Shown here: piece by piece, positions 2,007 through 14,846 of the stretch
Position numbering within the stretch: position 1 is the first letter of the stretch
Layout of the letters: each line of letters opens with the position of its first letter
Source of the DNA: a virus
IMG/VR virus record: IMGVR_UViG_3300025151_000339
Coordinates: 1-22,212 of that record
Length of the DNA stretch: 22,212 nt
Reading direction: 5' to 3' (one strand)
The notes under the pieces: model-generated
The model's input: only the letters and a program-made list of their open reading frames with translations
Databases searched by the model: none
Told to the model about the DNA's origin: nothing
Program-made: the position numbers and the translations under genes

Positions 2007-3566
2007 ATGGCCATACAATACCTACATAACATAAATTTAAACGATAACGAACTACAGAATGCTAAGTTACACGTTACAGATTCGGCTCCAACGGCCGCAA
2101 CGGGACAAATTTATTTTCATTCTACTTCCGGTACAATAAGAGTACACAATGGTAGTGGTTGGCAAACTTTATCAACCGATCAAACAGATGATTTTATAAC
2201 GTATTCGACATCGGTTGTAAGTTCATCAGGTATTAAGCTTAGATTAACAGGTACGCCTGTTTCAGGTTCCACAACTACGGACGACGTAAAATTTACAGGT
2301 TCTCAAGGTATAACAATATCAAGAGCAGATGCTAGTACCATTAATATACAAGGCACAACATATACGTCAAGTAGTTTTAATCATGATGATTTAACTGGGT
2401 TTGTTGCTAACGAACATATTGATTGGACAACCGATCAAGGATCTACGAATATACATGCTGGGAATTACAGTAACACTCAGTTAAGTAATTCTGAAGTAGT
2501 TGCTGCTATTGTTGCTAGCACTGGTATCAGTGGTTCTGATAAGTCTACTTTTAGATCAAATATTGGAGCAGGTACGTCTAGCTTTGACGGGGTTTACTCT
2601 TCTCTTAGTGGTATACCATCTACATTCGCTCCTTCTTCACATAATCACAACGATATATACTATACTGAGACGGAGATTGACAACATGGTTGTAAAGCTCA
2701 CTGGTAACCAAAGTATAGCTGGTGATAAAACTTTTAGCGATAACGTAACTGTAAGTGGAAATTTAACCGTTACTGGAACAACCACAACAAATAATGTAGA
2801 AGTTGTATCTACGTCAAACGGTGTAGTATTTGAAGGCAACGCGGCCGACGCAAACGAAGGTACTTTATTAGCAGGCACATTATCAGCTGATAGAACATAT
2901 ACATTACCTAATAAATCCGGTACAGTTGCTATGACAAGCGACATTACTGGTACTAACTCAGGAACAAACACAGGAGATGAGCCTGATGCTAGCACTACTG
3001 TAAAAGGGGTTGTTGAATTAGCAACTAATACAGAAGCAAATGCGGGTTCAGCTACAAATAGAGCATTAACACCGGCTAACTTAGGTGCTTTCACAGGACA
3101 ATCTAATATAGTAACAGTTGGTACAATTACATCAGGTACTTGGCAAGGATCAACAATATCAACATCTTATATACAGAATTTAAGTGGAACAAACACAGGT
3201 GATGAACCTGACGCTACAACATCTACAAAAGGTATTATAGAGATAGCCACAGATTCTGAAGTTAAAACAGGTACGTCAACAAATAAGGCTGTGACCCCTG
3301 CTGGTTTAAGAGTTCCATTTAAAGCTGTAACTATAACAGGTGACGGTAGTGCTACAAGTTTTAATGTAGACCATAACTTTGCTTTGTCAGATCTTATAGA
3401 TGTAAATGTTCAAGTAGTAGATTCTTTATCTTCTTCTGGTACATACGGTCAAACTGTTATGGCAGGAGTAGATAGAACAACGGCTAATAGAGTTGTTGTT
3501 AGCTTTGGTTCTGCACCAGCAAGCGGGCAAACATACAAGGTGCACTGTATACAAATGGGTGTATAA
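2007..3566 (+). CDS. Tail fibre protein with repeated beta modules
   Basis: The 519-residue protein starts MAIQYLHNINLNDNELQNAKL and continues with TGQIYFHSTSGTIRVHNGSGW, the usual N-terminal module of fibres in marine tailed phages. Around residues 212-221 is a His-x-His segment (HNHNDIYYTE), followed by KLTGNQSIAGDKTFSDN, a fibre repeat also common in T4-like long fibres. Two copies of a 42-residue module (SGTNTGDEPDA start, TPA-x-L end) begin at residues 318 and 393 and match at 26 of 42 positions. The C-terminal domain (from about 434) is a compact beta-rich tip with VVSFGSAPASGQTYKV. No S74 domain is present. The leader before the ATG is pure A/T. It is probably a trimeric fibre or fibre part used for host attachment; receptor specificity is unknown. 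Confidence 0.85.
   Translation: MAIQYLHNINLNDNELQNAKLHVTDSAPTAATGQIYFHSTSGTIRVHNGSGWQTLSTDQTDDFITYSTSVVSSSGIKLRLTGTPVSGSTTTDDVKFTGSQGITISRADASTINIQGTTYTSSSFNHDDLTGFVANEHIDWTTDQGSTNIHAGNYSNTQLSNSEVVAAIVASTGISGSDKSTFRSNIGAGTSSFDGVYSSLSGIPSTFAPSSHNHNDIYYTETEIDNMVVKLTGNQSIAGDKTFSDNVTVSGNLTVTGTTTTNNVEVVSTSNGVVFEGNAADANEGTLLAGTLSADRTYTLPNKSGTVAMTSDITGTNSGTNTGDEPDASTTVKGVVELATNTEANAGSATNRALTPANLGAFTGQSNIVTVGTITSGTWQGSTISTSYIQNLSGTNTGDEPDATTSTKGIIEIATDSEVKTGTSTNKAVTPAGLRVPFKAVTITGDGSATSFNVDHNFALSDLIDVNVQVVDSLSSSGTYGQTVMAGVDRTTANRVVVSFGSAPASGQTYKVHCIQMGV
2958..3308 (+). repeat. Two 42-residue fibre modules inside the 519-aa fibre gene
   Basis: The copies are at 2958-3083 and 3183-3308 and encode SGTNTGDEPDA...TPANL and SGTNTGDEPDA...TPAGL. 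By hand alignment 26 of 42 residues are identical, and the start-to-start distance is 75 residues. The DNA is clearly diverged at third positions, so this is an old in-gene duplication kept by protein-level selection rather than a recent DNA duplication. The intervening segment (FTGQSNIVTVGTITSGTW) looks like a beta-strand linker. Confidence 0.8.
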
Positions 3567-3583
3567 AAATTAAATAAAATAAA

Positions 3584-3778
3584 ATGATAATTAAAGTAGA
3601 ATATGATAAGTCAGATGCTACTTTAACGCTCACAAAAGATGATGATATAGTCGCTGTTATCAATGACAACTCAGTTGTTGATAATAGTGATACTTTATCG
3701 TTTGAAATAGCGTTAGATGTATCTCAATATCAAGAACAATATAACGAAGTAATAGCAGATGGCAACAATAACGAGTAA
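3584..3778 (+). CDS. Small acidic hypothetical protein
   Basis: The 64-residue protein starts behind an A/T-only leader 17 bases after the fibre gene. It alternates hydrophobic and charged residues (IIKVEYDKSDATLTLTKDDD, then LSFEIALDVSQYQEQYNEVI), suggesting a small beta-strand domain plus one helix. It is acidic, with no cysteine, membrane segment or known motif. I do not recognise a family. Its last 20 bases overlap the start of the 933-residue G8 protein in another frame, so the two are likely translationally coupled. It could be a small accessory or chaperone of the large adhesin that follows, but position is the only support for that. Confidence 0.65.
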   Translation: MIIKVEYDKSDATLTLTKDDDIVAVINDNSVVDNSDTLSFEIALDVSQYQEQYNEVIADGNNNE

Positions 3779-6560
3779 TTCATCAGGTAACTGGGCTACA
3801 GGCTCTACTTGGGTAGGGGGATCGGTTCCTGCCGCTGATGATTCAGTAGTTATTGCACATGGTCATAAAGTTACTTTAAATACAAACATACAGTCAACAA
3901 GAACTGGAGATGTTACTATAGACGGTAATTTACATTTTGCTACTAATGGTAAAATGCACCTACATGGTCGTATGCTAGTATATAACACTAGTCACAGTTC
4001 AAACAACACTGGTGAATTTGTAGAAGGCACTACCGCATCAGGTTCTCTGCTTAGTATGGCTAATGGTACTGAAATAAAAATATCTGGTAGTAATAGCGAC
4101 CAACATGGTATACAGGTTTATAATAGAAAATGGTGTGGTATTCAAATAGATGGCAGCGAACCAACATTAATAACAACAGTTAATGGTAACCATGCTCCTG
4201 ATTCTTCTTATATAACAGTAGCTGATGCTAGTAACTTCGCAATTAATGATAGAATATCATTATATAAAAGAGAAGAAGATCATACGCTTACAAATGACGA
4301 GTGTTTCTTTATTCATGATATAGACGCTACAAACGATAGAATTTATTTTAAACAATACGTTTGCCCTGAAGCAACGATACAATCAGTTAGTGGATCTACT
4401 ATAACAGTAGACGATGCATCTGTATTTAGAATTAATTATCTATTAATATTTGGCACAGGTAATAATAGAAACGTACTACGGGTCACAGATATAAACTTAA
4501 AAACAAATGTTATTACCTTTGGTAGCTCTGTTGACAACTCTCCCTCCTTAGTTGGTGCAAAAGTATATCAAACCGGCACCGAGAAATATCACATAAACGG
4601 AAAATTTTGTAGAAGAATAGCAAGTGCAATAGCAACAGAATATGTGGGCGCTACTAATCTTAGAACTATTACTCTTAACGACGTAACTGATTTTTCAGTT
4701 GGCGATGAGGTGTATATACACGCGAGTTTTAGCAAGTTTGGTGGTAATCTTGCTAATAATTATTATTATACTTCTAGCGGCTTTGGAAGTACATCACTAG
4801 GTAGCAATGAAGGTATATGGAGGCTTAAAACGAATTATACAGTAACAAGTGTTGATACTAGCGCTAAAACAATAACAGTTGATAGAGACATACTTTTTAA
4901 CGCTGCTGTAGGTGACCCTGTTGTAAAAATGACAAGAGATGTCGTTATTAAAGCTTGCGATACTAGTGGTAATGATGTAGCTGATGGTGACCAAGACACC
5001 GCTAGAGTGTTTTTTAGTGTAAGATATTGGACAAGCACTAGTTGGTATAACGCGCCAACGAGAAGAGTAAAGATAAAATACGTACAGTTTAAAGGATTAG
5101 GGTATAATACTAATGACAGTACAAATTATAGAGCTGGTGTTACAATAGCTGGTTATAATGGTTATTATGATACAACTAGAGATGGTTCATCAGCAGATAG
5201 CAACACAATACATAATGCTAGTGGTGTAACACAAACAGGTGAAAACTATATAGATGGTTGCACCTTTAGTTCTTATAATTTATGTAGTAACGATAATAGA
5301 GACGGTGATGATTATCCATCTATATGCGTAAGACATCCATATGGTATGGTGTCTAGAAATTTAGTTGTTATTGGAGCTGGTAGAGGCGTGTGGCATTGGA
5401 GTAGTCAATACTACAATAAATCGCATGGACATATAACAGCGCACTGCACCTATGCTAGTTCACAAATAGAGGCTGGTTATGAAATGCCTAACGAATATTC
5501 TTATGGTCAGTATTATAACTCTGAAGATTACGGCTTGATGCTTTATAATATAGGTAGACAAAATGACCAAGGTAAAGTAATGCACATGCGTGTTGAAAAT
5601 CATCGTGGTTATGGTTTTTACTTTGGAGGCTCTACAATAAGCCCTAATTATAGAAGATTTTTTGCTAATAGATACAAACAATTATGTAACCTAGCTGATA
5701 GTAATAATAATGTAATAGTAGACAACTCTAAAGTATACCCTAATGATTGGGATGCTACAATGAGCATATATGGTAAAGGCACGGGTTTAATATATCCAAA
5801 TACTTTGCAGAGTCATGGTAGTAGTCATTTAAGTTTAAGAAGAGGTGGTACTGGTTGGAAAGGTACTTATTCTTTTACTGAACAAGGTTTTAAAGAAAAC
5901 GAAAAAGTAACGGTATATCATAATATGACTAAGTTTGAGGGTGTGAAAAACTTACGTAACAACCTTTGGGTTCCTTCTTGGAGTAGTAATCCTATTGGTA
6001 TGGGTATTATTAAAGTTCCGGCAAACTGTACAATTAAAATAAAATCTGTAATATATATACCTACAGACGAGCTTGATGGAACATCATCTAGTTTATCCAG
6101 CAGCCACCCTCCTTACATTGTGGCTTCCTATGCTAACAATATGCTTTATGGTGCGAATGAATATGATGTTAACGACAACAATCATAGGTTTCCTCACGAT
6201 GAATTAGACTTAAATGACTCTAATGAAAATGCAGATTTAAAAAATAGCACGCAAGCTCAAGGTAAATTATATCAAGGTTTTATAGAATATACTCAACACA
6301 CAACAGCTGCCGATGGTGCTTGGGAAACAAAAATATTAACAGTTCAACCGCAATATAGAGCTTATTTTTTAAGATTTGGCTATTATTGTCAAAACCATAG
6401 TTTAGTTCACGAGGGTTTTTACGCTAAAGATATACAAGTTGCAATGTCTATAGCACCTCCAAATGGATTAGAAATGTGGCCTAACAACTTTGCTAAGGTT
6501 ACAGTTAGACCATCAGCAAATTTTGATGTTGGTAAAAAAAGAATATCAGGAAGAATTTAA
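3759..6560 (+). CDS. G8-domain, beta-helix tail/adhesion protein
   Basis: The 933-residue protein opens with a recognisable G8 domain at about residues 8-115: SGNWATGSTWVGGSVPAADD, then VVIAHGHKVTLNT, then a run of short beta turns spaced by glycines. G8 domains occur in secreted and surface proteins such as the hyaluronan-processing CEMIP group, and in phage or bacterial adhesins. Residues 150-410 hold repeated ITVADAS / ITVDDAS / ITLNDVTDFSVGDEVYI segments. From about 430 to 675 the sequence is rich in Asn, Gly and aromatic residues with repeating short strands, as in a right-handed parallel beta-helix of tailspike type. The C-terminal third is beta-rich and unassigned. It has no S74 domain. 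The ATG lies 20 bases inside the upstream gene. A role in binding or degrading host surface polysaccharide is inferred; no catalytic residues can be named. Confidence 0.75.
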   Translation: MATITSNSSGNWATGSTWVGGSVPAADDSVVIAHGHKVTLNTNIQSTRTGDVTIDGNLHFATNGKMHLHGRMLVYNTSHSSNNTGEFVEGTTASGSLLSMANGTEIKISGSNSDQHGIQVYNRKWCGIQIDGSEPTLITTVNGNHAPDSSYITVADASNFAINDRISLYKREEDHTLTNDECFFIHDIDATNDRIYFKQYVCPEATIQSVSGSTITVDDASVFRINYLLIFGTGNNRNVLRVTDINLKTNVITFGSSVDNSPSLVGAKVYQTGTEKYHINGKFCRRIASAIATEYVGATNLRTITLNDVTDFSVGDEVYIHASFSKFGGNLANNYYYTSSGFGSTSLGSNEGIWRLKTNYTVTSVDTSAKTITVDRDILFNAAVGDPVVKMTRDVVIKACDTSGNDVADGDQDTARVFFSVRYWTSTSWYNAPTRRVKIKYVQFKGLGYNTNDSTNYRAGVTIAGYNGYYDTTRDGSSADSNTIHNASGVTQTGENYIDGCTFSSYNLCSNDNRDGDDYPSICVRHPYGMVSRNLVVIGAGRGVWHWSSQYYNKSHGHITAHCTYASSQIEAGYEMPNEYSYGQYYNSEDYGLMLYNIGRQNDQGKVMHMRVENHRGYGFYFGGSTISPNYRRFFANRYKQLCNLADSNNNVIVDNSKVYPNDWDATMSIYGKGTGLIYPNTLQSHGSSHLSLRRGGTGWKGTYSFTEQGFKENEKVTVYHNMTKFEGVKNLRNNLWVPSWSSNPIGMGIIKVPANCTIKIKSVIYIPTDELDGTSSSLSSSHPPYIVASYANNMLYGANEYDVNDNNHRFPHDELDLNDSNENADLKNSTQAQGKLYQGFIEYTQHTTAADGAWETKILTVQPQYRAYFLRFGYYCQNHSLVHEGFYAKDIQVAMSIAPPNGLEMWPNNFAKVTVRPSANFDVGKKRISGRI

Positions 6561-6570
6561 ATAATAAAAT

Positions 6571-9500
6571 ATGTCAATACCATTTTTAAGTAATATAATA
6601 ATAGATGACGCTGGGCACATACAATTTAAAACTTTTGCCGGAGCTGACGCTGGTAAAATAAACCAAGATGGCGATGATTTAGTTTTAAGTAATCCCGTTG
6701 GTGATATTATTATTGGTAACGGTAGCGATGATGTTTATATTGGTGACGGAACAAATACTGTAGATATTAGGTTTGAGCAAAACATGTCTATATATGCAGA
6801 CTCAAGTTCAACCAGGACACTAACTCTAGGTGGAGCTAATACTAATTTAATATTAGATAACCCCTCTGTTGTTGGTGATTTTACATTAGCTAGTAAATTA
6901 AAGTTTACCGGAGCTAATGGTTATATACTGTTTGATCACGAACCATCAAATGATACTGGTGCTTACGAGGGTACAACATCTGTTCCTTTATTAAAAGTAG
7001 ATAGAAATGGTACTGAATTAACAATTTTAGAAAGAGTATCAGAAAATGCAGCTATATTGCTTGGTAACGATGATTCTGTTATAATAGCGGCTGGAGACAC
7101 TAGACATGTTATCAGAACAAATATTGGTGAAAGCGGTGAAAATGTTATTCTTGCTTCTGAATCTGGTTTTCATGCATATGGTTTTCCTAATAATGATACC
7201 ACTTGGTCTAATAGACAAGAGTTTAGATTTTACACCGGGGGAGCAGATAGCAGTTTAAATGGTTTATGGATAGGAGATGGTGGCAATACACAGTTTATAG
7301 ATTTAAATAGAAACTTAAAAAATATAGGCACTATAACCGCTAGTGGTAAAATATCTGGTGGTGAAATAGAAGGAACTAGCTTAGATATAAACGGTAACGC
7401 TGATATATCCGGAAATTTAACAGGCGTAGATAATTTAACAATAAACGGTACTTTATCAGGTGTTAGCACCGCAACTTTTGCAGGAGACGTACAAATACTT
7501 ACTTCATCTGGAGAATATGCTGTATACGCAGCAGCAGATGGACAAACTGCACTTTATAACAACGGTGTAAAAAAGTTTGAAACAACAACTGTTGGTATAG
7601 ATGTTACTGGTGAGGTTCAAGGTGATAGTTTAGATATAAACGGTACTTCTGATGTTTCAGGTAATGCTGTTTTTCATGGCAAAACTGGTTTTGGTGGTGC
7701 TACATCCACTTATAATGTTCATGCTATTGGTACTGGATGGGGTGGGAGCGGGGTAGCTATACAATCAACAACAACAAACGGAGCTGTATTGTCATTAATT
7801 AATACAGCTAGAACTTTTCAAGTAGCATCAAGAGGTAGTAGTTTTGATGTTAGAGACATAACAGCTGGAGATGTAAGAAGGTTTTATATAGATTCTAATG
7901 GTGTATCTAATTTTGAGGGTAACGTACGTTTAACAAGCAATAGCTCTTCTTTTGTAGGACGTAAGTTTGTAGCTAGAGATAGTAATGGTACGGGTCTTTT
8001 TGCTGATGATGCTACTAGTGGATTATCTATTGCAGATAACGGTAATGCAACTTTTACAGGCAACGTAGGTATTGGAATTACTAGTCCTAGCCAAAAATTA
8101 GAAGTTGCAGGTAATGCTTTAATAAATAATTCAGGTGATGGTAAATTATATTTAGGTAGCACATCAGATTATGTAGGTAATATAGGCTCTGATCTTTACG
8201 TTTATTCATCTGGTCAAAATATTTTTTATTCTGGTGGTAGTGAACAAATGCGAATTAAAACTAATGGTAATGTTTTAATACCTAACGGGAACGTAGGTAT
8301 TGGTACTGCATCTCCAAGTGATAAACTACACGTTATTCAAGGAAGCGATGCTTTTAGAGGAATAACCATAGAAGGAACAACTCCTGCTTTATACTTAAAA
8401 GATACACAAGCTACAAACGCGTATCACATAGCGGCTAATGATAATTATTTGTATTTTTTAGAAGACTCAAATCAATCTGGCGGCTATAACAATATACTGG
8501 CGTTTTGGGACCCTTCTAAAAATTTCATATTTCAAACAGGTAACGTAGGTATCGGTACTACTAGTCCTAGTCAAAAATTACACGTTGTATCTGGAGACAC
8601 TAACCACGTAGCCAGATTTGAATCAACAGATTCTATAGCGGAGATAACAATACGAGACAATAGTACATACACTAGACTTTTAAATATAAGTACAGACTTT
8701 AAATTAATGCCAAATAATGGTGGTACTGAATTTATATTTGAAGGCGATACTGGTAACTTTGTTAACCCTGGTCATATAAGACTTGTTGATAATGGTAAAG
8801 TTCAATTTGGTGCTTCTAGCGATTTAGAAATATTCCATAACGGTACAGATTCGACAATAACAAACGCTACAGGTGATTTATATATAACTAATGAGTCGAA
8901 TGACAAAGATATTATATTCAGGTCAGATGATGGATCAGGTGGTGTTGAAACTTACTTTGAGTTACAGGGTGTTTCTGGAGGAGGCTCTCCTTTTACAGTA
9001 TTTCCTGACTTGTCTAATTTAGTTTTTGGTAATGGTCACGACCTTAGACTTTATCATACGGGATCTACAAGTTTTATAGAAAACTATACCGGTGAACTAC
9101 AAATAACAAACTATTCTGATGATAAAGACATAGTACTTAAATCAGATAACGGTTCTGGAGGCGTGGATCCGTACTTAAGGTTAGATGGTAGTATTGCATC
9201 TTTAGTGGTTTACAAAGATATGCTATTTGCTAATGATGGTAATGATGGTAAGCTTAAATTTGGCGCTTCGCAAGATTTAGAAATATATCACGATGGTAGT
9301 CATAGTTACGTTAAAGACACGGGAACAGGTAATCTAACACTGTCAGGTACAAACCTATATCTAACTACTACTGATGGTCAAATTTTATTCAAGGGTATTA
9401 CTGATGCTGAAACTGGTTTGTATTATGACAACTTACTCAAACTAGAAACAACAATTACAGGTATAAATGTTACTGGTGGAGGAAATTTTACAGGAAATAT

Positions 9501-12500
9501 AACACTTGATGGTGACGGTAGGTTATTAAAATTTACCCCAACATCTTATGATGATGTAGAACTTGGTATTGATTCTAATGGCTTTGTAATTTATAATACA
9601 ACAGATGCAAGATATGATTTAAAAATAAATGGTAGTGGCGATGCAACTTTTGGAGGACACTTAAACACTATTGACAATAAAGGAATTTATGTTGGAACAG
9701 GACTTGACTTCGGTATGTATCATGACGGTACTCACACATATATTACAAACGATAGTATACCTGGATCAAATCTTTATATAAGAAATGCTACCAACAATGC
9801 TGATACATATTTTCAAGGAGATGATGGTTCTGGTGGGCTAGCTACATACTTACAATTAGATGGAAGCGCCACTAATATAAAAGTAAGAAAAAACGCGCGT
9901 TTTAGTGATAATATTCAAGCGCAGTTTGGTGATAATGGAGACTTACAAATATTACATGATGGAACAAATTCTGTAATAAGTAATCAAATAGGAGATATAC
10001 AAATAATAAATCATGCAAATGATAAGGATATTAAATTTTATTCTGACGATGGTAGCGGTGGAATAACAGGATATTTTACCTTAGACGGTTCTACTACCCA
10101 TGCTTACTTTTCAAATCCAGGTAGCGTAGGTATTGGTACAACATCCCCTGGAACAATAAATGGAGTTACTTTTAGCGGTGTTGGATTACACGTAAAAGCC
10201 GGTACTCTCGGGAGAACTATAACAGAGGGTACAACTTTCGCTGAATTTATAATGAATCATAGTAATGCATCTGCAGATCAAAGAGTTAAATACTTGATGA
10301 GTAGAGCAGGTGTGCTTGAGCTTGGTTCTATGGATGATGACGGCTCAAGAAGAACACAAGTATCTATTTTAAATAATAATAACGTAGGTATCGGAACTAC
10401 TAGTCCTCAAGCTAAATTGGACATATCATCTACAGGTACTGGTGATTCTATGATAATCCGTAACAATGACGCTTCTAGTTCAGCAGCTCCAGTACTTATG
10501 CTATTAAGAGATAGTGCTAGTGTGGCTAATGGTGATTACTTAGGACAGATAAAATTCAAAGGTAATAGTGACACAGGTGCTGAAAGAGTATACGCGAAGA
10601 TAACAGCTAAGATATCTGATGCAACTAATGGGGCTGAAGATAGTCTTATAGAAACAGCGGTTAGAAATAATGGTTCTAACCTTATAGTATCTAGACAAAC
10701 ACACGATGCCTTAAAGCTAATAAATGGAACTGGTCTTGAAGTAGATGGTGATACAATATTATCAGGTAATTTAACTATAGATGGCGGTATAGTCGTTGCA
10801 GACCCTGATGCTGCTGGTCGAGCTTTCGCATGGAAAGAAAGCGATAGTAGTACGGTAGCAGGGGAACTAAGAACCTATGGTAATAGAGGAGACATTTACC
10901 TATATAAAGATGGTACAAAATTAGTTGAATTATCGCCAGGTACAGATTCTTTCATACCTGCTTTACATATAGGTGGAACAGCAGCTGCAAGCGGTGGAGT
11001 TTTACAGGTTACTGGTGATGCAACTTTTGGAAGTAAAGTTATTATTCCGCAATCAGCCACAACAATTGGTGGATCTAATTTAAGCAACGCTAGCCTTTTG
11101 CTTGGAAGTGCTACAACTGGTATTGGTATTGATACTAATGAAATTGTAAGCAAAGGAGACCATTTATATATTGGTACCGCAACGGACGGTAAGAATATTA
11201 TATTTAGAACTGACGCAACTTCCCAGGTTCTTACTTTAGATTCTTCTCAAAACGCAACTTTTACAGGAAATGTAACATTTGGTGACTCACATTTTATTGG
11301 TAATGATTCGTTTGACAATTTACACATACTATCATCAAGTGGAGAAAACGTAGTTATAGAAGCCCCAAGCGGTAACTCTATAGATTTTAAAACTGCTAGT
11401 GGTTCAGCTTTAAATTTAGACTCTTCCCAAAACGCAACTTTCTCAGGTACTATTAACCTTGATTCAAGTAACATTAATATTGATGGTAATGGCGCTGTTG
11501 TGTTTGACAACACAAACAATAATAATCCTTGGTATATAAGAAACGGAGGTACTAATTCCGCTACTTTACAAATGGGGACAGGATCACCTGGAAGCAATAT
11601 AAAATTTACACTTGACGGGAATGGTAACGTAGGTATCGGTACTACTAGTCCTAGCTATAAATTAGAAGTAAGTGGAAATGCGGCTCTTTCTCTTGGACAA
11701 GATAGATACTTAAGAATAGGTAGTTCTACTAACTATTGGTGGGATTTACAATCTGTATCTAATGATTTTACTATAAAAGAAGCAGGGTCGAACACAAGGG
11801 TAATCGTTAAGTCAGGTGGTAACGTAGGTATTGGTACCGCGAGTCCTAATAGTGTGTTAAATGTAGAAGGCACAAAAACAGTTGCATTAACATCAGCGGC
11901 TCACTTTTTGACTCTTGGTTTATCTATAGATGATAATAATACTTACGATACATTAGGTGCGGGCGGAGGTGTAGCTTTTAGAGGTGTCAATAATAGTTCA
12001 GGAACTCGAATTGTTTATGGTGCTATAGATGCTTTTAAAGAAAGTAGTAACCCGACAGATTATAAGGGTTCATTAAGGTTTTTTACAAATCAAAATTCAA
12101 CAGGTGTTCCATTAGAAAGAATGCGTATTGATTCATCAGGTAACGTAGGTATTGGTACTACTAACCCTACAACTAAACTTCAAGTAGCAGGTAATTCAAC
12201 CTATATAAGTGTAAAAAATACTAGTAACAATAAAGCCGTGGATTTAGGTGCTGATAGTTCAGGTGACGGATTATTACAGTTGCGTAATTCAAATGGCGTT
12301 GAAAAAATTAAAATATATGCAGAAGCTAATTCTAGCAGCTATATTAATAACGGTGGTAACTTAGGTATTGGCACAACTAGTCCTAGTGATAAGCTGGATG
12401 TAGGCGGTAATATTAGAGTAACAAATGTTAATGGCGGGAACGCTGTTGATTCAGGGAGTTTATTGTTTTTAGAAGGCGCAAGTCAAGCCTGGGGGTCTGA

Positions 12501-14040
12501 TGCATATGGCTTTAGAATAAACCATGACGGCAGCGATAACAAGTTGAAAATACAAAGCGCTGCTAGCTCAGCAACAAATGACATCTTAACATTACAAAGA
12601 AATGGTGATGTAGGTATTGGTACTACTAATCCTAATGGTAAACTCTTTGTGATTGATACAACTTCATCTTCATCAGTACAGAAATTTCATGTAGGTAGAA
12701 GTAACAATGCTGGATTAACTATAACCGATACAGATGCAACATCCTTCATTCTAGCTACTCAAGACGAGGATGAGGTTGGGTATGGTAATTTAAGTATACA
12801 AGCAGATGATAGGGGTGATAAAGATGGACACATAAGCCTTGGGCATAGGTCTAGAGGTGAAGCAATGCGTATTACCGATGGCGGTAACGTAGGTATTGGT
12901 ACTTCATCCCCAACTAGAAATCTAAGTGTATATAGAAATACAGCAGGGTCAGTAGCAAACTTCCTGCATTATACAGATGCTAGTAACTTCTCAGGACTAT
13001 ACATTGATGTATCAAATACTGATGAATTAGTAACCCTTACTGCAAGTGGAGATACATCGGCATCGTTTGCTTTTAAAACAGGAAATAATGAGCGTATGCG
13101 TATTACTTCAACTGGTAATGTAGGTATTGGCACTACCAGTCCTGGTCATAAACTAACAGTTATAGGGGGTAATATACAAACTAATGGAATTGTTTATTCA
13201 AATACAGTAAGAGATAATACTGGCGGTAATGTAGTTATTCAAGATAATGGTGGTAATGTAGGTATCGGTACTGCTAGCCCGGATTATAAATTAGAAGTAA
13301 ACGGCACGTTAGGTGTTTCAAGAACAAATGGTATTATTTTTGCTGGAAGCTCCGGAACAGGAACTGGAAATAAAATATATTCAGACACTTCTAATAACTT
13401 TATTATTAGCACCGCTGTTGCATCGGCCCCCTATTCCTCTACGGAAAGGTTTCGTATATTAAATAATGGTAAAGTAGGGATTGGAACCACTAGCCCTATT
13501 GGAAAATTAGACATTGCAAGTGACAGTACTTGGAATAATTCAAAAATAGTAATTAGAAGTACTACTAATGCAAACCCACTACTTAGCTTTCATAGGCCGA
13601 CTGGCTCTGGAAGCAATAGTTACCCTTGGCATTTACAAGCTGGTGATACTGGTAAAAGCTCATCTTTTTTTATAAAAACAGGTAGCGCCGCTGCTCCAGG
13701 TAGTGAAACAGTTTCGCAGGTATTAGAAATAAACCCTAATGGTAATATAACTTCTTCTGGTACAATAACAGCACAAAACTTTATATTATCTTCTGATAAA
13801 AGATTGAAAAATAATATTAAAAATATTATTAACAGTAAAGTAAATGTAAACTGGAAGAGTTTTGAAATGAAGTCTAACGAGGGTCAAAAAAGATATGGGG
13901 TTATAGCGCAAGAGTTAGAAGAAAATCATCCGGAGTTTGTGAGAACAGATGAAGAAGGAATGAAATCTGTAGCTTATGTAGATTTATTGATTGCTAAAAT
14001 AGCCGAGCTAGAAGCTAGGTTAGAAAAACTTGAAAAATAA
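6571..14040 (+). CDS. Giant modular tail fibre with C-terminal S74 self-cleaving chaperone
   Basis: The 2489-residue protein is built from repeated beta modules. Residues 1-340 are a beta-rich head. Fourteen copies of a (V/L)GIG-x3-P motif, usually followed by a KL-x-V-like strand, start at residues 499, 575, 659, 1186, 1272, 1687, 1752, 1859, 1931, 2014, 2107, 2184, 2230 and 2302. Between the third and fourth copies lie five modules of another kind (DLEIYHDG-type strand, then DDGSGG in most) starting at 746, 819, 897, 1041 and 1119. The C-terminus is a complete S74 domain. The segment S2408-D-K-R-L-K2413 has the Ser/Lys dyad five residues apart, as in phage endosialidases, followed by GVIAQELEE and a terminal coiled-coil helix. 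Cleavage before S2408 would release 82 residues. It is the largest gene here and very probably a long side or central fibre that recognises the host. Confidence 0.92.
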   Translation: MSIPFLSNIIIDDAGHIQFKTFAGADAGKINQDGDDLVLSNPVGDIIIGNGSDDVYIGDGTNTVDIRFEQNMSIYADSSSTRTLTLGGANTNLILDNPSVVGDFTLASKLKFTGANGYILFDHEPSNDTGAYEGTTSVPLLKVDRNGTELTILERVSENAAILLGNDDSVIIAAGDTRHVIRTNIGESGENVILASESGFHAYGFPNNDTTWSNRQEFRFYTGGADSSLNGLWIGDGGNTQFIDLNRNLKNIGTITASGKISGGEIEGTSLDINGNADISGNLTGVDNLTINGTLSGVSTATFAGDVQILTSSGEYAVYAAADGQTALYNNGVKKFETTTVGIDVTGEVQGDSLDINGTSDVSGNAVFHGKTGFGGATSTYNVHAIGTGWGGSGVAIQSTTTNGAVLSLINTARTFQVASRGSSFDVRDITAGDVRRFYIDSNGVSNFEGNVRLTSNSSSFVGRKFVARDSNGTGLFADDATSGLSIADNGNATFTGNVGIGITSPSQKLEVAGNALINNSGDGKLYLGSTSDYVGNIGSDLYVYSSGQNIFYSGGSEQMRIKTNGNVLIPNGNVGIGTASPSDKLHVIQGSDAFRGITIEGTTPALYLKDTQATNAYHIAANDNYLYFLEDSNQSGGYNNILAFWDPSKNFIFQTGNVGIGTTSPSQKLHVVSGDTNHVARFESTDSIAEITIRDNSTYTRLLNISTDFKLMPNNGGTEFIFEGDTGNFVNPGHIRLVDNGKVQFGASSDLEIFHNGTDSTITNATGDLYITNESNDKDIIFRSDDGSGGVETYFELQGVSGGGSPFTVFPDLSNLVFGNGHDLRLYHTGSTSFIENYTGELQITNYSDDKDIVLKSDNGSGGVDPYLRLDGSIASLVVYKDMLFANDGNDGKLKFGASQDLEIYHDGSHSYVKDTGTGNLTLSGTNLYLTTTDGQILFKGITDAETGLYYDNLLKLETTITGINVTGGGNFTGNITLDGDGRLLKFTPTSYDDVELGIDSNGFVIYNTTDARYDLKINGSGDATFGGHLNTIDNKGIYVGTGLDFGMYHDGTHTYITNDSIPGSNLYIRNATNNADTYFQGDDGSGGLATYLQLDGSATNIKVRKNARFSDNIQAQFGDNGDLQILHDGTNSVISNQIGDIQIINHANDKDIKFYSDDGSGGITGYFTLDGSTTHAYFSNPGSVGIGTTSPGTINGVTFSGVGLHVKAGTLGRTITEGTTFAEFIMNHSNASADQRVKYLMSRAGVLELGSMDDDGSRRTQVSILNNNNVGIGTTSPQAKLDISSTGTGDSMIIRNNDASSSAAPVLMLLRDSASVANGDYLGQIKFKGNSDTGAERVYAKITAKISDATNGAEDSLIETAVRNNGSNLIVSRQTHDALKLINGTGLEVDGDTILSGNLTIDGGIVVADPDAAGRAFAWKESDSSTVAGELRTYGNRGDIYLYKDGTKLVELSPGTDSFIPALHIGGTAAASGGVLQVTGDATFGSKVIIPQSATTIGGSNLSNASLLLGSATTGIGIDTNEIVSKGDHLYIGTATDGKNIIFRTDATSQVLTLDSSQNATFTGNVTFGDSHFIGNDSFDNLHILSSSGENVVIEAPSGNSIDFKTASGSALNLDSSQNATFSGTINLDSSNINIDGNGAVVFDNTNNNNPWYIRNGGTNSATLQMGTGSPGSNIKFTLDGNGNVGIGTTSPSYKLEVSGNAALSLGQDRYLRIGSSTNYWWDLQSVSNDFTIKEAGSNTRVIVKSGGNVGIGTASPNSVLNVEGTKTVALTSAAHFLTLGLSIDDNNTYDTLGAGGGVAFRGVNNSSGTRIVYGAIDAFKESSNPTDYKGSLRFFTNQNSTGVPLERMRIDSSGNVGIGTTNPTTKLQVAGNSTYISVKNTSNNKAVDLGADSSGDGLLQLRNSNGVEKIKIYAEANSSSYINNGGNLGIGTTSPSDKLDVGGNIRVTNVNGGNAVDSGSLLFLEGASQAWGSDAYGFRINHDGSDNKLKIQSAASSATNDILTLQRNGDVGIGTTNPNGKLFVIDTTSSSSVQKFHVGRSNNAGLTITDTDATSFILATQDEDEVGYGNLSIQADDRGDKDGHISLGHRSRGEAMRITDGGNVGIGTSSPTRNLSVYRNTAGSVANFLHYTDASNFSGLYIDVSNTDELVTLTASGDTSASFAFKTGNNERMRITSTGNVGIGTTSPGHKLTVIGGNIQTNGIVYSNTVRDNTGGNVVIQDNGGNVGIGTASPDYKLEVNGTLGVSRTNGIIFAGSSGTGTGNKIYSDTSNNFIISTAVASAPYSSTERFRILNNGKVGIGTTSPIGKLDIASDSTWNNSKIVIRSTTNANPLLSFHRPTGSGSNSYPWHLQAGDTGKSSSFFIKTGSAAAPGSETVSQVLEINPNGNITSSGTITAQNFILSSDKRLKNNIKNIINSKVNVNWKSFEMKSNEGQKRYGVIAQELEENHPEFVRTDEEGMKSVAYVDLLIAKIAELEARLEKLEK
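8539..8570 (+). repeat. Exact 32-bp direct repeat, copy 1 (partner at 11623-11654)
   Basis: This stretch, from the GGTAAC before the third GIG motif to the CCTAG after it, is identical base for base to 11623-11654. The flanking bases differ on both sides. The copies are 3084 bp apart, exactly 1028 codons, in the same frame. Confidence 0.9.
8806..10092 (+). repeat. Five DLEIYHDG / DDGSGG fibre modules within the 2489-aa gene
   Basis: Modules begin near residues 746, 819, 897, 1041 and 1119. The pattern is FG-x-x-x-DL-x-(I/L)-(Y/F/L)-H-(D/N/T)-G-(S/T), followed after about 20 residues by (D/N)DKDI and then (D/N)GSGG-x-x-x-Y-x-x-L-(D/Q)G. The third copy lacks the DGSGG half and is replaced by a different strand. 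Four of the five units are spaced about 75 residues apart; a 144-residue gap separates the third and fourth. Such modules are common in marine phage fibres. They form an insert-like block between two groups of GIG-type repeats. Confidence 0.8.
11623..11654 (+). repeat. Exact 32-bp direct repeat, copy 2 (partner at 8539-8570)
   Basis: This is identical over all 32 bases to 8539-8570 and lies at the sixth GIG motif of the fibre. Other GIG motifs in the gene use different synonymous codons (for example ATT for ATC in GIG, or GCA/TCT for ACT/AGT in TSP), so the identity is more than the protein motif requires. Confidence 0.9.
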
Positions 14041-14801: not shown

Positions 14802-14846
14802 TATAAAAATTAAAACAAAAAATAAATAAACATTAAAACAAAAAAA
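14802..14846 (+). other. A-rich untranslated leader
   Basis: These 45 bases between two genes are almost entirely A with scattered T and only two C. There is no hairpin with a T-run and no Shine-Dalgarno motif. It looks like the A-rich, unstructured 5' leader that Bacteroidota genes use for initiation, here longer than elsewhere in the window. Confidence 0.6.

Follow-up and report, generated by a model that had tools for sequence, protein, structure and literature searches.

A repeated 30-nt linker in a giant S74-type phage tail fibre and its proposed part in module shuffling

The giant fibre gene and its core copies

The window, by which we mean the whole 22,212-nt stretch of viral DNA analysed here, carries a giant tail-fibre gene (Table 1) whose product matches the PHROG tail fiber family phrog_18345 (E 8.6e-47) and whose N-terminus matches fibres from other virus contigs. 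A profile search found Peptidase_S74 (PF13884; 34.4 bits, cut-off 22), and SDKRLK near the C-terminus of the translation fits SDxxxK, the catalytic motif of S74 fibres (PMC10769870). On the strength of this domain and motif we class the window fibre as S74 (chaperone of endosialidase) type. At the sequence level it also matches solved Bdellovibrio chains of the MAT (mosaic adhesive trimer) superfamily, Bd2133 (8ond_A, E 5.7e-11) and, more weakly, 8oml, 8ojn and 8ol4; proteins of this superfamily have a signal peptide and a conserved N-terminal domain of ~130 aa (PMC10769870).

A 30-nt core that encodes GNVGIGTTSP occurs 14 times along the gene. The core aligns with the VGI(G/N)T loops of solved MAT chains and reads V-G-I-G-T-T-S-P-x-x-x-L; the MAT capping-loop consensus, V-G-G/N-pi-X-X-P-X-X-X-L (PMC10769870), is as printed one position shorter before the P, perhaps through a lost symbol. 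The core is probably the capping loop of a trimeric fibre. Where modules are shared with other fibres their limits can fall close to cores: the module shared with L117 starts 20 nt ahead of its first core and stops inside its second.

Table 1. Features of the fibre gene in the window; the 14 cores start at 8059, 8287, 8539, 10120, 10378, 11623, 11818, 12139, 12355, 12604, 12883, 13114, 13252 and 13468
Feature	Position	Strand	Basis
Gene for the giant tail fibre (2489 aa, Peptidase_S74 at the C-terminus)	6571..14040	+	ORF, Peptidase_S74 profile, PHROG match
Core copy, first of 14	8059..8088	+	
Core copy	8287..8316	+	
Exact 32-nt repeat, copy 1 (core GNVGIGTTSP plus bases 1 and 2 of a Ser codon)	8539..8570	+	
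Stretch between repeat copies: two more cores (10120, 10378), four modules with H-[DNT]-G motif	8571..11622	+	
Core copy within repeat interval	10120..10149	+	
Module beginning at core 10378, 77% shared with L087/L359 fibre	10376..10768	+	
Exact 32-nt repeat, copy 2, frame as in copy 1	11623..11654	+	
Core copy	11818..11847	+	
Module with cores 12139 and 12355, 79% shared with L117 fibre	12119..12384	+	
Core copy	12604..12633	+	
Core copy, start point of 129-nt homology with L222	12883..12912	+	
Core copy	13114..13143	+	
Module from core 13252 to core 13468, 69% shared with L367, both ends at cores	13252..13485	+	
Peptidase_S74 intramolecular chaperone domain (aa 2408-2457)	13792..13941	+	

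As an earlier note on this DNA had described, two of the cores belong to an identical 32-nt repeat whose copies lie 3084 bp (1028 codons) apart in the same frame. The identity covers exactly 32 nt, with no extension possible on either side, and each copy begins at the first base of a codon in the ORF; by arithmetic on the ORF, deletion between them would leave 2489 - 1028 = 1461 residues with both termini retained. Among exact repeats in the window this pair is the longest, the next in length (21, 20, 20 and 20 nt) all sitting at other copies of the GNVGIGTTSP motif, and the sequence flanking its two copies is unrelated (25-40% identity). The 32-mer occurs at two places in its own IMG/VR record, and a scan of IMG/VR, which may omit records very near the window, gave no exact match elsewhere. 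When codons were drawn from the usage of the gene, a 32-nt run was reached in 0 of 20,000 draws for the whole gene and in 1 of 20,000 with the motif removed; with permutation limited to the codons of the 14 motif copies, 32-nt identity had P = 0.0065; and with all synonymous codons of the gene shuffled, the longest repeat was 28 nt and none of 2000 trials reached 32. By these nulls the DNA identity of the pair exceeds what the protein requires, as the earlier note had claimed. The same note had singled the pair out, and here it did not hold up: since there are 14 cores, with homogeneity that spans gene and genome, the 32-nt pair is not special and is the extreme member among the copies of one 30-nt core.

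Codon-level likeness of the cores

The suggestion that the copies have been homogenised is in agreement with what we found beyond the pair, because cores resemble each other at the DNA level both gene- and genome-wide. Three samples of genes were compared, each among the matches listed, after removal of any ORF that had 60 residues in common with a preceding one. Core codon identity was 0.567 against 0.373 expected in viral set A (excess in 61 of 67 genes), 0.560 against 0.381 in the held-out viral set B (30 of 32) and 0.502 against 0.332 in cellular genomes (75 of 96). For the two viral sets, flanking codons and the conserved L in KLxV stayed near expectation, and the excess ended at the core edges; in the cellular set the flanks were slightly raised (0.387 vs 0.342). 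Core-located exact repeats of at least 30 nt were present, again among the matches listed, in 6/67 genes of set A (L118 31, L121 31, L122 30, L145 32, L146 30 and L174 35 nt), 3/32 of set B (L203 30, L208 32 and L212 30 nt) and 10/96 cellular genes, and a single gene can hold as many as 20 cores (L134).

Copies within one gene share 0.62 of their codons. Between genes from different contigs matched for GC3 the figure is 0.43, barely above the 0.376 expected (ORFs of at least 200 aa); because so little is shared between contigs, we rejected a universal DNA site. Codon-context bias was likewise ruled out by a control, run without L164 and L198, in which the same tripeptides outside the core gave 0.375 vs 0.637 between cores and were lower in 77 of 88 genomes. 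Recurring 4-mers with unrelated flanks had a small codon excess (0.429 vs 0.388), and the codon excess fell off only slightly as distance grew (Spearman -0.11, p 0.056; ORFs of at least 200 aa).

The main rival to recombination as the source of this likeness is codon selection at the loop, specific to a genome or lineage and acting through translation pace or folding, which would make copies alike with no exchange between them. Such selection, too, would be expected to produce the likeness of cores across the ORFs of a contig, which is as high as that within one ORF (0.595 vs 0.569), between L205 and L211, which are alike outside the fibre and have different fibres (0.55 and 0.62 shared in the two larger comparisons), and between the single core of L046 and those of the window (0.63). 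Furthermore, AAC, AGT and GGT are codons that genomes of different origin prefer at the core (L164 being left out of these counts as a duplicate). Against it, tripeptides elsewhere in the core-bearing ORFs of the same contigs do not share codons, the conserved L right after the core shows no effect, and the cores of the window and L087 share 0.456, even though the two have the same GC3 and their neighbour gene is related, compared to 0.63 and 0.62 within each. Crossovers at or inside cores, moreover, are seen directly in L369/L370 and L368 (below), and on balance we consider codon selection an unlikely explanation.

Recent duplication of whole modules, whose bodies later diverged or were replaced, we regard as improbable. 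It would suit the cellular genes with longer copies (L342 96 nt, L294 55 nt and L328 54 nt) and the raised cellular flanks, but both the window and the two viral sets (67 and 32 genes, among the matches listed) have flanks at background, and we infer that bodies diverged to that extent should have been accompanied by saturated synonymous sites in the cores as well.

Module variation in relatives and recombination genes

Neither module order nor fibre length is conserved among relatives, and the variation includes, in keeping with the earlier note, in-frame loss or gain of single modules between cores. L369 and L370 differ by the presence or absence of a single 264-bp module that is in frame and bounded by cores (98.1% identity to the left, 99.6% to the right), and a second assembly, L371, repeats the L370 form with 1 mismatch in 3150 bp. 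L373 and L376 differ by one 315-bp module, and L368 has a relocated module with its crossover within a core. Among the L087-type relatives (excluding L362, L363, L365, L371 and L383, which are repeat assemblies, and L372, L384 and L385), 26 of 51 homology-block ends lay at in-register cores vs 5.5 expected, although these ends do not count as independent, since three fibres supply 18 of the 26; split into two separate fibre groups, the core-located ends were 18/22 vs 4.2 expected and 6/26 vs 0.74. The other 25 junctions were away from any core.

Other comparisons gave weaker or different pictures. The first junction test, which took in every core-bearing gene, gave a weak signal (38/399 vs 25.7 expected), and for the window's own modules homology ends lay at cores no more often than expected (13/96 vs 13.8). 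An in-register count excluding L164, L198, L211 and L225 placed 20 of 383 ends at cores vs 104 of 22110 interior positions, an enrichment partly expected because modules end at cores. In L119/L225 and L205/L211, which are 93-98% identical outside the fibre, fibre blocks are replaced whole, uncut between cores, and L095 and L098 have a swap of ~169 vs 70 bp at other motifs. A scan with the L134 fibre yielded, besides the contig that carries it, two partial relatives.

Could the 32-nt pair be a dedicated switch, deleting 1028 residues to alter fibre length or specificity? In its favour, no exact repeat in the window is longer, the pair is in frame and its deletion would keep the termini, relatives do show module indels at cores, and 1.8-kb in-frame tandem duplications arose in the 6.6-kb fibre gene of EfV12-phi1 in 4/4 coevolved replicates (PMC6365445). 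However, there are 14 cores rather than two, near-identical fibres were equal in length in all seven sets compared (four with at least two cores), and the 1028-residue deletion allele was not seen among the contigs compared. Fibre length was also the same in L186 and L198 over 7369 shared bp and in the cultured Synechococcus phages S-CRES1 and S-CRES2, whose 1317-aa fibre has 11 cores in each. We thus give very little credence to the built-in switch, and neither the existence of the 1028-residue deletion nor frequent switching is supported. Chance codon coincidence or a misjoined contig is just as improbable, for even though the window is a single 22-kb virus record, the nulls above rule out chance, the effect repeats in held-out genes and the L370 form recurs in the L371 assembly.

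An ERF annealing protein is encoded in 11 of 20 related or core-bearing phage records (6/8 and 5/12), including that of L371, and was not found in the other nine, including MW202828; RecT was found in 0/8 and 0/12 records and Rad52 in 0/14. The minimal pairing segment is 23-27 bp for Red-beta and 31-34 bp for RecA, and D3 Erf matches Red-beta in efficiency (PMC3945230).

Proposed mechanism and comparison with known systems

We propose, at a probability of roughly 0.62, that the linker is a recombination-prone coding sequence, homogenised by recombination, that drives slow shuffling of fibre modules. The 30-nt linker GNVGIGTTSP would mark the module borders of the S74-type fibre, and its copies would be usable for recombination because their DNA is kept nearly identical within a genome, over a length sufficient for homologous or annealing recombination. 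Copy-to-copy exchange would always be in frame and would join modules at a structural border, so that a module could drop out, be added, be swapped for another or change place while the fibre stayed intact, and the same exchange would keep the copies alike (concerted evolution), making recombination the cause of core homogeneity. ERF, or host RecA, may carry out the exchange, the window's own 32-nt pair could presumably recombine, and host range may be affected as modules are exchanged.

A broader version, which we hold tentatively and at somewhat less than even odds, is that capping-loop codons form a general self-maintaining linker, with ectopic exchange in phages, bacteria and archaea keeping the 30-nt core uniform per genome and the modules exchangeable in frame, also between fibre genes. 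If true, one short sequence would double as structural cap and shuffling site. More generally, the proposed linker would give a sequence-level answer to how modular phage fibres and cellular fibre-like proteins are rearranged without frame loss or broken folds, and the linker would predict which fibre stretches can be lost or swapped, which bears on the reading of phage host range from sequence.

Literature searches with the core motif strings gave no match, and none of the papers among the matches listed described such a fibre linker, as judged by title and start of abstract. In the gp38-like adhesin, conserved Gly-rich motifs reportedly alternate with variable segments, which are swapped by motif-to-motif exchange. 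The likeness to our proposal lies in that exchange of variable segments between conserved motifs; the differences are that the adhesin is another protein, that the window-type linker reaches 20 copies per gene (L134) and is found also in other ORFs, and that its DNA homogeneity is limited to 30 nt in the viral sets.

The EfV12-phi1 duplications are similar in that the number of repeats within a large tail-fibre gene changes in frame, but they concern a 1.8-kb duplication in the laboratory, and the part of that report available to us describes no short border repeat (PMC6365445). Rad52-like annealing proteins of phages, among them Erf, carry out a relaxed recombination that similarly uses short homologies (23-34 bp) and yields mosaics, although it has been studied on test substrates or in exchanges of a phage with defective prophages, rather than between the coding linkers of one gene (PMC3945230). 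Lastly, the Bdellovibrio MAT fibres are, like S74 phage fibres, long and in one subfamily have an S74 C-terminus, and they repeat the capping-loop motif on the edges of trimeric beta-helices, an arrangement that the window fibre, as a predicted trimer, may share; there, it is tips that have been swapped in evolution, whereas here it is the DNA of the loop itself that we propose as a recombination linker (PMC10769870).

The repeat pair and its gene

The earlier note had singled out two 32-nt copies within the fibre gene of the window, and that observation held up: the copies match exactly, cannot be extended to either side, share one reading frame and are spaced 1028 codons apart, and the sequences flanking them are unrelated to each other. 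Their identity exceeds chance under three concordant null models, since codon resampling reached the repeat in 0 and 1 runs per 20,000, codon permutation among the 14 motif copies gave P = 0.0065, and synonymous shuffling across the whole fibre gene gave a longest repeat of 28 in 2000 trials. The repeat is the extreme end of a graded pattern in which the copies of the 30-nt linker core encoding GNVGIGTTSP lean to the same codons; ATA makes up 57% of the Ile codons in the gene, yet none of the 14 core Ile codons.

Judged by its length, the IMG/VR record (22,212 bases) is part of a larger genome, that of a podovirus-like phage. The terminase shows 66% identity to that of Podoviridae sp. ctfjg026 (MW202828, 60,850 bp) and 46% to those of Flavobacterium phages of the genus Elemovirus, and the 87 matching phage records comprise 68 from Flavobacterium, 15 from Cellulophaga, 2 from Tenacibaculum, 1 from Maribacter and MW202828. 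The two ORFs listed ahead of the fibre perhaps encode further tail proteins.

Features of the window and of related locus L371
Feature	Coordinates	Size	Remarks
ORF ahead of fibre	window 2007-3566	519 aa	BppL_N match
ORF ahead of fibre	window 3759-6560	933 aa	G8 domain, N-terminal
Fibre ORF	window 6571-14040	2489 residues	Peptidase_S74 domain at its end
Repeat copies	window 8539-8570 and 11623-11654	32 nt each	inside fibre ORF
A-rich 20-mer, twice	window 14803-14845	20 nt each, 23 nt apart	between ORF ending 14801 and ORF starting 14847
Tandem duplication	L371 2509-5243 and 5236-7970	2,735 bp	99.85% identity; upstream of fibre; single copy in near-identical L370

Codon likeness of linker cores in other genes

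A scan of IMG/VR with a pattern permitting every synonymous codon of the core gave at least 120 loci (L-numbers below denote loci of this and the other scans), and codon identity was tested in genes with at least two cores. Among the matches listed, the first 80 loci had 61 of 67 genes with identity between copies above expectation (p = 1.4e-10), and the remaining 40, a held-out set that played no part in forming the idea, had 30 of 32 (p = 3e-8). For cellular genes, mostly from metagenome-assembled genomes, the count was 75 of 96 (p = 3e-9). The excess in the two viral sets is limited to the ten core codons; a leucine four codons past the core, common to 78% and 76% of pairs, showed none. Identical tripeptides outside the core did not share the codons. 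Flank identity in the cellular set is slightly raised (0.387 vs 0.342), so some cellular modules are copies. Three cellular genes (L294, L328 and L342) carry exact copies around cores of 55, 54 and 96 nt, the last being the entire stretch compared, and the cellular scan also matched Patescibacteria and archaeal metagenome-assembled genomes.

Cores in other ORFs of one contig are as alike as those within one ORF (0.595 vs 0.569; 18 viral contigs). L205 and L211, which are similar outside the fibre and have different fibres, share 0.55 (12 pairs) and 0.62 (8 pairs) in the two larger comparisons. L046 has one core, and its identity to the window cores is 0.63, against 0.456 for L087, 0.32 for L107 and 0.13 for L096. 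Core homogeneity therefore belongs to the genome or lineage; GC3-matched genes from different contigs show low sharing (0.43 vs 0.376 expected). Homogeneity at this level fits ectopic recombination and, taken alone, would fit codon selection at the core too.

Module differences among related fibres

The N-terminus of the window fibre is present in 20 IMG/VR loci, with 16 fibre frames of 1206-2365 residues, three shorter and one running off its contig, and a scan with the core-rich L087 fibre gave 25 loci, its own contig among them. The loci with this N-terminus have modules in common, at DNA identity of up to 95%, and some of these modules stand in another order. Among the loci of the L087 scan, L369 and L370 are 98.1% identical along the 855 bp that lead to a core and 99.6% identical along the next 271 bp, and L369 has an extra 264-bp module bounded by two cores; the L370 form recurs in a second assembly, L371, with one mismatch. 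L373 and L376 are 99.6% identical along 1614 bp and then differ by one 315-nt module between cores. In L368 one module lies at a different place than in L369 and L370, and the sequence there follows one source up to mid-core and the other thereafter. Of the 51 internal block ends counted across 12 fibres, 26 fall at in-register cores (5.5 expected). By group, with counts inside a group not independent, the excess holds in two, 18 of 22 (4.2 expected) and 6 of 26 (0.74), and not clearly in a third, 2 of 3 (0.57; P = 0.09). Alignments from these L087-type fibres into their neighbours show 83-95% identity overall, below the 98-99% of the fibres' N-terminal blocks; this suggests that phages also exchange modules with one another. 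Separately, the L095 and L098 fibres (1239 and 1206 aa, 98-99% identical) differ by a swap of about 169 vs 70 bp at fibre nt about 1770-1940, adjoining GGTLTGDLTL and VDGVDI motifs, so linkers other than the core may act alike.

Near-identical fibres are equal in length in seven sets (four with at least two cores), as are L186 and L198 along 7369 bp in common and the cultured Synechococcus phages S-CRES1 and S-CRES2 (1317 aa and 11 cores each, 14 mismatches). Exchange is therefore too slow to show in such pairs, although a minor variant would stay hidden in a consensus assembly. For the modules of the window itself, the ends of homology are not enriched at cores (13 of 96 vs 13.8 expected), perhaps because its relatives are distant, and in L119/L225 and L205/L211 a fibre block was replaced at borders without cores. 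The earlier suggestion that the 32-nt pair could be a built-in deletion device is only partly supported: module indels at cores occur in relatives, but no variant of the window's fibre is known and near-identical fibres keep their length. Better supported is the wider pattern, in which each genome keeps the copies of a 30-nt coding linker alike and the linker serves as a junction in module exchange, a pattern of which we found no description in the open-licence papers searched.

Proposed short-homology exchange at the linker

The relatives of the window fibre with solved structures are Bdellovibrio chains. They belong to the mosaic adhesive trimer family, where a similar motif is described as forming capping loops at trimeric beta-helix edges (PMC10769870). 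A junction at the cap would leave both adjoining modules able to fold, and since the motif is conserved as protein, exchange at the core would stay in frame every time. We infer that recombination causes the core homogeneity and that ERF, an annealing protein family, carries it out; two sets of records tested contain ERF in 6 of 8 and 5 of 12 cases, among them Elemovirus and the records that hold L371, L362 and L363. It was not found in MW202828, nor were RecT and Rad52 in the phage records tested. Exchange between cores would probably proceed by pairing over short homologies. Minimal pairing lengths are given as 23-27 bp for Red-beta and 31-34 bp for RecA, with the Erf of phage D3 equal to Red-beta in efficiency; at about 30 nt, the core copies reach the pairing length of Red-beta and come near that of RecA (PMC3945230).
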